The notes beneath the pieces were generated by a model. That model saw nothing but the letters and a program-made list of their open reading frames with translations, searched no databases and was not told the origin of the DNA. Of a stretch of 64,000 nucleotides of DNA, positions 21,342 through 22,377 are shown one piece after another. This stretch comes from Hymenobacter edaphi. GTDB taxonomy: Bacteria; Bacteroidota; Bacteroidia; Cytophagales; Hymenobacteraceae. A program made the position numbers and the translations under genes. The stretch is from assembly GCF_003258365.1 (NCBI RefSeq), contig NZ_QHKM01000003.1, forward strand, positions 496,001-560,000, given 5' to 3'. Every line of letters starts with the position of its first letter. The first letter of the stretch is position 1.

Positions 21342-21372
21342 AATTGAGCATCCGGATACCGGATGCTCAATT
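21342..21372. terminator. Rho-independent terminator after iaaA
   Basis: Perfect 14-bp stem (21342-21355 with 21359-21372), 3-base loop, followed by a run of seven T. Confidence 0.92.
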
Positions 21373-21555
21373 TTTTTATTGGCGTCAGCAGGAGGGAGTT
21401 ACTGTCAAATTTATACCCGTATCGGTATTCTGATATCAAACTATGCAACACCGGGCTTGCTTTGCCGTCATTGACGCAATGACGCTGCTGGTGCCCGATT
21501 ATCATTTTTGGTTGCAGGCGTCCTTAAAATTGCCAACTTGCTGGCAAAAGGACAC

Positions 21556-21788
21556 AAAAAAGGCGGCACCCACCCAGATGCCGCCTCTATTGAAGGACGC
21601 ACCCACCCAGATACGTCCCGGTTTTTCCCTCCTCACACGATCCACCCAAGTTGTAGATGAAGGAGTTGAACCTTCCCAACCGCTGGCTTCCGGAAAATCT
21701 TTCCGGAGGCTGGCTGGTTGCCGAACCCGAACCGTCAGCAAAGCTTTGGGGTGCTCTTCTACAAGATTCGCAACGCCGACTGCGTTGC
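21556..21788 (-). ncRNA. Candidate structured small RNA of about 235 nt
   Basis: This gene-free stretch between iaaA and the Lrp gene is highly structured when read leftward. A full-match -7 box (21796-21803) precedes it and a G/C stem followed by T6 ends it (stem 21562-21585, T tract opposite 21556-21561). In order: a perfect 7-bp hairpin (21770-21788); arms TTGTAGA/TCTACAA (21758-21764 with 21651-21657) enclosing about 100 nt; a long imperfect hairpin (21677-21720) of about 20 bp; a 5-bp hairpin with loop TTCAACT that looks exactly like a tRNA/tmRNA T-arm (21659-21675); and two hairpins (21595-21618 and 21562-21585) with different stems but an identical loop ATCTGGGTGGGT. It is not an ordinary tRNA: no D-arm or anticodon arm fits. 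Short frames over it look like translated structural RNA. Confidence 0.55.
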
Positions 21789-21795
21789 ATTGAGA

Positions 21796-21803
21796 CAAAT
21801 GTA
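21796..21803 (-). promoter_or_regulatory. -7 promoter element for the candidate small RNA
   Basis: TACATTTG on the minus strand, a full TAnnTTTG match, 8 bases before the first hairpin. The bases upstream are strongly AT-rich; no canonical TTG was found at the -33 position. Confidence 0.5.
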
Positions 21804-21912
21804 ATAGCTTTATTTAAACGATAAAATATTTTCAGTGAAAATATGAGCTAATTACATTCTTTCTTTAAATAGACACTCCCTTTTGCAACTTTTCCAAGCA
21901 ACGACTTCTAAA

Positions 21913-22377
21913 ATGTCCCGGAATTACGAACTTGACGACACCGACCGGAAAATTCTGGCATTGCTGCTCGACGACGCCAAGATGCCCTACACCGAAATAG
22001 CCCGACGAGTACACGTATCGGGTGGTACGGTGCACGTGCGGATGGCGCGGCTGGAGGAATTGGGCATCGTCAAAGGCGCGACCCTGAAGATTGACTACGC
22101 CAAGCTCGGCTACGGGGTCAATGCCTTTCTGGGCATCTACCTGCTCAAAAGCTCGGTGTACGGCAGCGTGGCCGAGCAGCTGCGCGACATTCCGGAGGTG
22201 GTCAGCATCCACTTCACCACTGGGGCCTACGGCGTCTTCGCCCGCCTCGTGTGCCGCGACACCCAGCACCTGCGCGACGTGCTGCACGACCGGATTCAGC
22301 TGATTGAAGGCATTGAGCGCACCGAAACGCTCATTTCGCTGGAAGAAACGCTTAACCGCCCGATCCAGCTGATGTAA
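21913..22377 (+). CDS. Lrp/AsnC family transcriptional regulator
   Basis: A 154-residue DNA-binding protein. The N-terminal winged helix-turn-helix covers residues about 6-62 (LDDTDRKILALLLDDAKMPY, TEIARRVHVSGGTVHVRMARL), followed by the RAM/AsnC ligand-binding domain (about 70-150) with GVNAFLGIYL, VVSIHFTTGAYGVFARLVC and GIERTETLISLEETL. Members form octamers and respond to amino acids. The long AT-rich intergenic region upstream is shared with the divergent small-RNA candidate, so it could regulate that transcript or itself; this is inference. Strong terminator follows at 22405. Confidence 0.92.
   Translation: MSRNYELDDTDRKILALLLDDAKMPYTEIARRVHVSGGTVHVRMARLEELGIVKGATLKIDYAKLGYGVNAFLGIYLLKSSVYGSVAEQLRDIPEVVSIHFTTGAYGVFARLVCRDTQHLRDVLHDRIQLIEGIERTETLISLEETLNRPIQLM

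Follow-up and report, generated by a model that had tools for sequence, protein, structure and literature searches.

A conserved, structured RNA descended from a tRNA-like ancestor is encoded leftward in the window, by which we mean the whole 64,000-nt stretch of Hymenobacter edaphi DNA analysed here (contig NZ_QHKM01000003.1, positions 496,001 to 560,000), and it is paired with a divergent gene for an AsnC-type regulator. On its other side lies a convergent asparaginase gene (PF01112). We propose, with a probability of about 0.6, that the locus is an independent, tRNA-derived small RNA gene, in which G-rich hairpin loops would do the work, a retained acceptor/T-arm helix would serve processing, and the AsnC-type protein would exert control. 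The product would be a small RNA of ~235 nt, transcribed leftward between the two protein genes from a promoter of its own. The computations establish the RNA's conservation, its structure, its descent and its pairing with the AsnC gene; transcription, processing, AsnC control and a partner for the loops are the parts of this proposal that we infer.

Read along the minus strand from 21803 to 21556, on which all parts of the RNA lie, the sequence presents a −7 promoter element, a leader hairpin, a 114-nt domain, a linker, two hairpins with the same loop and a T6 tract. The −7 element TACATTTG (21796–21803) is of the TAnnTTTG type, the promoter consensus of Bacteroidota. TAnnTTTG recurs in 26/31 AsnC-to-RNA intergenic regions of relatives, its position within the region being uncontrolled; in the window, this region common to the RNA and the AsnC gene spans 21804–21912. 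The 5′ leader hairpin (21770–21788) has a 7-bp stem, GCAACGC/GCGTTGC, and a 5-nt loop. A 5-nt-loop hairpin is predicted at the same position in 43 of the 44 hairpin-bearing loci, the exception (L063) having another fold, and its stem variants include GCAACGC/GCGTTGC, GCAACAC/GTGTTGC and CCAACGC/GTGTTGG.

The 114-nt domain (21651–21764) is closed by an acceptor stem, in which TTGTAGA (21758–21764) pairs with TCTACAA (21651–21657). It contains a T arm, GAAGG-TTCAACT-CCTTC (21659–21675), and an internal hairpin (21677–21720, alignment A2) that is weakly conserved in the genus and stands where relatives have the anticodon and variable arms. The linker between the T arm and the hairpin tail carries UGGGUGG and GAGGAGGG; its motif CTTGGGTGGAT (21640–21650), with this third UGGGUGG, is only partly kept (it is missing, for example, from L011 and L052), and a purine-rich stretch, GTGAGGAGGG, follows at 21627–21636 (alignment A1). 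Both G-rich hairpins carry the loop ATCTGGGTGGGT: hairpin 1 (21595–21618) at 21601–21612, and hairpin 2 (21562–21585), which doubles as the terminator stem, at 21568–21579. The T6 tract of the terminator occupies 21556–21561. The leftward unit of the original prediction, with its −7 box, 5′ hairpin, same-loop hairpins and terminator, is borne out by the sequence position by position. A third loop-related motif, which had been placed at 21654–21643, is present as ACTTGGGTGGAT but lies at 21651–21640. Within single RNAs of L010 and other sister-genus loci, the linker GAGGAGGG is complementary to the anticodon-arm sequence CCCUCCUC, and the two might pair as an alternative. Past the asparaginase gene, the window holds another terminator-like element (21346–21377), a palindromic GAGCATCCGGATACCGGATGCTC followed by AA and a T run.

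Strong matches to the hairpin tail come from a narrow group. The 3′ part was found in 8/8 genomes of the window's genus, and a covariance model of the 3′ domain (R1) was run on 204 genomes of the bacterial family to which this genus belongs. Whereas 161 of them pass E 0.01, 91 do so at E ≤ 1.0e-9 (as printed; the E-values of R1 and of the models R2 and R3 used below are rough, from a short calibration), and these belong to two genera only, 8 to the window's genus and 83 to a sister genus. Weak R1 matches outside the two genera were kept out of the hairpin-tail counts, although it was through two of them (L070, L071) that the wider family was reached. Loops were counted in 44 of the loci L001–L068, 24 having been set aside beforehand as repeats (L021–L030, L033, L035, L038, L053, L060), second pieces (L017, L018) or weak unrelated matches (L012–L016, L019, L020).

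These 44 loci carry 91 hairpins containing TCTGGGTGG, two or three per locus. The hairpins were located by this very string, so its own invariance is built in and loops lacking it are uncounted. The loop is ATCTGGGTGGGT in 84 hairpins, CTCTGGGTGGGG in six and ATCTGGGTGGAT in one, and TCTGGGTGGG is present in 90/91 of the hairpins so located. The stems differ among species with pairing kept (GGCGGC/GCCGCC, GGCTGC/GCAGCC, GGCAGC/GCTGCC). Mean column identity is 84% for the 3′ domain and 68% for the whole unit. These comparisons support the view, put forward in the original prediction, that the G-rich loop ATCTGGGTGGGT is under selection while the stems vary around it. The two window loops are identical as it had described, but their length is better given as 10 nt than as 12, because in 6/91 hairpins the outer A-T becomes C-G, which puts that pair in the stem.

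As a whole, the 240-nt RNA folds better than 200/200 shuffled sequences (z −3.28). Rfam 15 gave no match at gathering thresholds in the window or in five loci of relatives, and at E ≤ 10 only sub-gathering matches to unrelated families appeared in either; the suggestion of a structured small RNA outside the Rfam classes has held up on both counts. Closure of the 114-nt domain is a different matter, since, for the window sequence by itself, the fold of lowest energy omits it in favour of a pairing between ATCTAC and the GTGGAT of the third motif. The closing strands are complementary and comparison among relatives supports their pairing, so the domain is supported by comparison rather than by energy. 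A switch between the acceptor stem and the third motif (ATCTAC/GTGGAT) was considered and dropped when this pairing was seen by eye to be lost in L005, L010 and L011. A coding explanation was also discarded: one 98-aa open frame spans both window loops, yet the loop spacing is 33–36 nt in relatives, and therefore no reading frame is kept.

Comparison identifies the 114-nt domain as what is left of a tRNA cloverleaf whose variable arm was very long. At the same AsnC-linked site, sister-genus orthologues have a full cloverleaf in place of the window's irregular interior: an acceptor UGUAGRR/yyCUACA, a D arm with GG and A21, an anticodon arm CCCUC-CUCUCUC-GGGGG, a long branched variable arm and a T arm GGAGG-UUCGAAY-CCUUC. 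A covariance model of the cloverleaf (R2) picks exactly 21651–21764 in the window, if weakly (18.1 bits, E 0.22). A second model (R3) gives 15.2 bits (E 0.0064) on L001 and finds three of the six window-genus loci given to it, at 13.6–20.2 bits. Because the direct match is weak, the tRNA ancestry of the window copy rests on orthology, and this in turn on the AsnC neighbour, the 3′ tail, the acceptor and the T arm, all held in common. The hairpin that had been called T-arm-like is there, but its tRNA nature had been missed; it appears to be a real T arm within a tRNA-derived domain.

Eight genomes of the window's genus retain the outer six pairs of the acceptor in 48/48 cases and the T-arm pairs in 39/40, while the interior of the domain aligns poorly and the D and anticodon arms are lost. 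The window copy accordingly retains the acceptor and T arm, and has A at 73. The acceptor also appears eroded by eye in six of the 44 loci (L063–L068), none of which R3 matches, so the acceptor helix does not look indispensable. Covariation among homologues, which had been proposed as a check, is seen in the intact cloverleaf. In a structure-free MAFFT alignment of 22 sequences (A3), 97.6% of cells pair and 11/30 pairs have changes on both sides; 0/500 shuffles score as high, and slid partners pair in 49–60%. An alignment of 80 distinct sequences (A5), itself fitted to the structure, has both-side changes in 19/30 pairs (310 cells; 0/500 shuffles). A TTCRANY-type T loop and the D-loop GG occur in 80/80 of these distinct intact relatives. 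The full set of covarying acceptor, D, anticodon and T helices is found in the intact relatives only.

The divergent neighbour (21913–22377, plus strand; the ATG at 21913 was chosen by eye) encodes a protein with the AsnC_trans_reg and HTH_AsnC-type domains of Pfam, as regulators of the E. coli AsnC/Lrp family have. Its best match among solved structures is E. coli AsnC (PDB 2cg4). AsnC is also its best NCBIfam match, but the score is under the equivalog cut-off (150 vs 227 bits). The gene is the sole match to its own protein in the window's genome at E ≤ 1e-8. A divergent AsnC gene stands beside the RNA in 44/44 hairpin-bearing loci. In the wider family, 53 distinct loci (after removal of 10 repeat rows) include 30 with the gene head-to-head with the RNA, at 121–213 nt. 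Of the 80 named loci examined out of 120 stretches, 10 had too little flank; among the 70 informative ones, 42 have the gene head-to-head within 400 nt. No AsnC gene adjoins at the other 23/53 loci, where flanks are mostly ~1.5 kb, or at 28/70 named loci. In four genomes (G009, G012, G014, G017), an AsnC gene is present with the family member not nearby or with no strong member at all. No AsnC box common to the intergenic regions of relatives could be singled out by eye. Elsewhere, the AsnC gene beside the RNA adjoins SufB-like iron-sulphur cluster assembly genes (L138, L139) or feoB (L137). Both the much wider family and the divergent AsnC gene as the usual neighbour in this branch had escaped the original prediction.

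We envisage the following history and mechanism. The ancestor would be a tRNA-like RNA with a tRNA-Leu-like D region and a tRNA-Asp-like anticodon loop and discriminator. In this bacterial family, it would have acquired a 3′ tail of two or three hairpins presenting UCUGGGUGGG, and later, in the genus of the window, decay would have removed the anticodon and D arms but spared the acceptor stem and T arm. The acceptor/T-arm helix is the minimal substrate of the tRNA end-processing enzymes RNase P and RNase Z, and this may be why it is kept; processing there could define or protect the ends of a stable RNA, or free the G-rich 3′ tail. The G-rich loops would be the working part, binding an RNA-binding protein or a C-rich RNA. 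The RNA would probably be controlled by the neighbouring AsnC protein, or co-controlled with it, as part of an amino-acid response.

How the loops act could be read otherwise. The RNA may be an antisense sRNA that pairs, through its UGGGUGGG loops, with the C-rich leaders of numerous mRNAs, the tRNA-like part being a mere leftover. Stems that change around a constant loop, repeated two or three times per RNA, are what such a regulator would be expected to show, and the ten-base loop complement CCCACCCAGA has 16 sites in the window's genome (two in the RNA locus) against four for the reversed control pattern. The C-rich targets that had been predicted thus have a somewhat commoner complement than the control, but no convincing leader was found among the 14 sites outside the locus. 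Most of them lie within long open frames; two directly precede an ATG, one of these within a longer open frame and the other opposite a 724-codon frame. Antisense action seems possible but unlikely. In another reading, which we hold somewhat less probable still, the loops, with two G3 tracts each, form a three-layer G-quadruplex between two hairpins, or are a repeated docking site for a protein. GGGTGGG in 90/91 of the hairpins found, at two or three hairpins per RNA, would suit either form, but the loop GGGTGGAT of L068 disrupts the fourth G3 tract. That the locus is simply a decaying tRNA-like pseudogene, with hairpins that are just terminators, is very improbable. The missing D and anticodon arms and the poorly aligning interior in the window's genus are what decay would leave, but the 3′ domain is better conserved than the whole unit, the T-arm and acceptor pairs are kept, and the identical loop is also found in the upstream hairpin, although the terminator is formed by the last one alone.

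Intact cloverleaf relatives are far more widespread than the tail. In the R2 lists, long members score at least 83 bits and span about 109–176 nt, and ordinary tRNA-Leu-like matches of about 85 nt reach at most 62 bits; one 77-nt member (G011, 66.6 bits) is intermediate between long members and ordinary tRNAs. With a cut-off of E 1e-17, R3 detects the family in 297 of the 390 genomes that sample the order (282 of the 351 good genomes; 99 of 129 genera). Among 395 genomes that sample the phylum it detects 41 carriers, of which 15 belong to the same order as the window. Both counts take in a small number of short or intermediate members, G011 among them. Carriers among the matches listed include Hymenobacter, Dyadobacter, Cyclobacterium, Algoriphagus, Belliella, Runella, Emticicia, Flammeovirga and Saprospiraceae. 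The window's genome itself has an intact copy at C28:129320, without an adjoining AsnC gene. Tandem arrays of 3–5 copies occur in the family; in L130 (7711–8677), L131 (7287–8063) and L134 (7703–8451), four or five similar copies follow one another at ~200-nt spacing with short spacers. A plasmid search with one tandem array gave zero matches. Within the variable arm, GGGTTGACCAC is exact in 15 of 80 distinct members, and CTAAC (68/80) and GGANAAA (47/80) flank an inner stem. Loci with GGGTTGACCAC are L103–L107, L116–L118, L120, L125, L128 and L130, together with the viral contigs L145, L148, L152 and L156.

Phages carry the family as well. Fourteen IMG/VR contigs contain its core, and of four viral contigs tested, three encode some proteins that match phage replication families (in the fourth, 0/3 proteins matched). 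Through similarity to an IMG/VR contig, a 636-kb phage record (LR756504.1) was found to carry a member (L306, 4001–4144) amid nine tRNA genes that ARAGORN calls in a stretch of 8.1 kb. Its anticodon loop is the unchanged CTGTCTC, and its stem sequences are different. On another viral contig (L154), a member at 477–634 lies near tRNA-Ser and a tmRNA gene.

The family resembles bacterial tRNA-Leu in its D region, where 16/20 bases are alike with the window genome's own tRNA-Leu(GAG), and bacterial tRNA-Asp in its anticodon loop, the commonest of which, CTGTCTC (38/80), differs from the CTGTCAC of tRNA-Asp in relatives at position 37 only. Unlike these tRNAs, it has a pyrimidine at 37 and, in intact relatives, a variable region of 39–106 nt (median 67), and its long form is uncalled by ARAGORN and matches no Rfam tRNA model at gathering. 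The strong aspartate determinants in the available text of PMC9976931 are G73, G34, U35, C36 and C38; among the 80 intact relatives, they occur in 80, 66, 80, 80 and 80, respectively. Because every anticodon belongs to some amino acid, the information lies in the match at G73 and C38 alone, which chance would produce about 1 time in 16. That text also lists G10 and calls the pairs G1-C72 and G2-C71 crucial for bacterial aspartate identity; G2-C71 is present in 80/80, but G10 in 14/80 and G1-C72 in 0/80, U1-A72 taking its place in 80/80. CCA is encoded after G73 in 11/80. The pattern suggests that AspRS may bind or charge the intact RNAs, next to an asparagine-type regulator. Such a role cannot fit the window copy as it is, because the anticodon arm is lost and position 73 is A; tail-bearing sister-genus copies, too, mostly have CTCTCTC in the anticodon loop. 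In three Dyadobacter loci (L171, L202, L217, assigned by output order), ordinary tRNA-Asp genes lie ~5 kb from the tRNA-like RNA.

The intact members might instead be ordinary decoding tRNAs that annotation overlooked, which we consider improbable. They have the cloverleaf, the T loop and the D-loop GG throughout and U33 in 69/80, and some sit among phage tRNA genes. ARAGORN even calls one of them, a 77-nt member with a short variable arm (L300, 1838–1914), tRNA-Asp(atc); the AsnC-linked copy of the same genome looks degenerate. U33 and a purine at 37 are, however, near-universal in decoding tRNAs, and here position 37 is a purine in 2/80 and a pyrimidine in 78/80, and position 33 is not U in 11/80. 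Besides, the window's genome has an ordinary tRNA-Leu, and relatives have ordinary tRNA-Asp. Charging by SerRS rather than AspRS strikes us as slightly less probable again. SerRS does not read the anticodon, which is among the best-kept parts of the family. The bacterial serine identity set, as far as the available text of PMC9976931 gives it, includes G73, a large variable arm, G2-C71 and C72; the family agrees in the first three, but C72 is missing (A72 in 80/80), and C11-G24 and G30-C40 are found in 9/80 and 2/80 only.

The tRNA-like family appears unnamed. ARAGORN called no tRNA in the window, in two sets of 11 and 6 other loci, or at the RNA itself in a further 14, the short-armed L300 member being the exception; nor did it call a tmRNA in the window or in any bacterial locus submitted to it. 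The literature, surveyed by titles and abstract openings with few subscription journals covered, yielded no description, though one may exist elsewhere. We take the window copy to resemble tmRNA, in that the acceptor and T arm are retained and the rest is replaced; the two differ, as the viral contig L154 carries a tmRNA plus a separate family member. A likeness by description, with no homology claimed, is offered by tRNA-Other, a pseudo-tRNA of Bacillus cereus which, in the available part of its report, has no translation role and is suggested to be part of a larger regulatory RNA (PMC3399842). As described there, tRNA-Other belongs to a B. cereus island and is iron-responsive, whereas the present family is order-wide and beyond, has a variable arm that is giant and branched, is often accompanied by an AsnC gene and bears, in the window's branch, a G-rich hairpin tail.

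A bolder reading, tentative and to our minds rather doubtful, makes the family a new class of chimeras, tRNA-Leu-like in body and tRNA-Asp-like in anticodon loop and discriminator, which AspRS would bind and the ribosome could not use. They would form an aspartate/asparagine control module with the divergent AsnC gene and travel on phages; in Hymenobacteraceae, it is the AsnC-linked copy that would have been rebuilt into a regulatory RNA with G-rich loops. If true, chimeras with an outsized branched variable arm, perhaps charged by AspRS, would belong to a module found across the order and parts of the phylum. An unnamed tRNA-like RNA with a conserved structure is, in any case, present in about three-quarters of the sampled genomes of the order, often with a regulator gene, and has copies in phages. 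Through it, a connection of a tRNA-like RNA with an aminoacyl-tRNA synthetase and with an amino-acid-type regulator can be put directly to the test, and the window exhibits one route by which a tRNA-like RNA may turn into a regulatory RNA.
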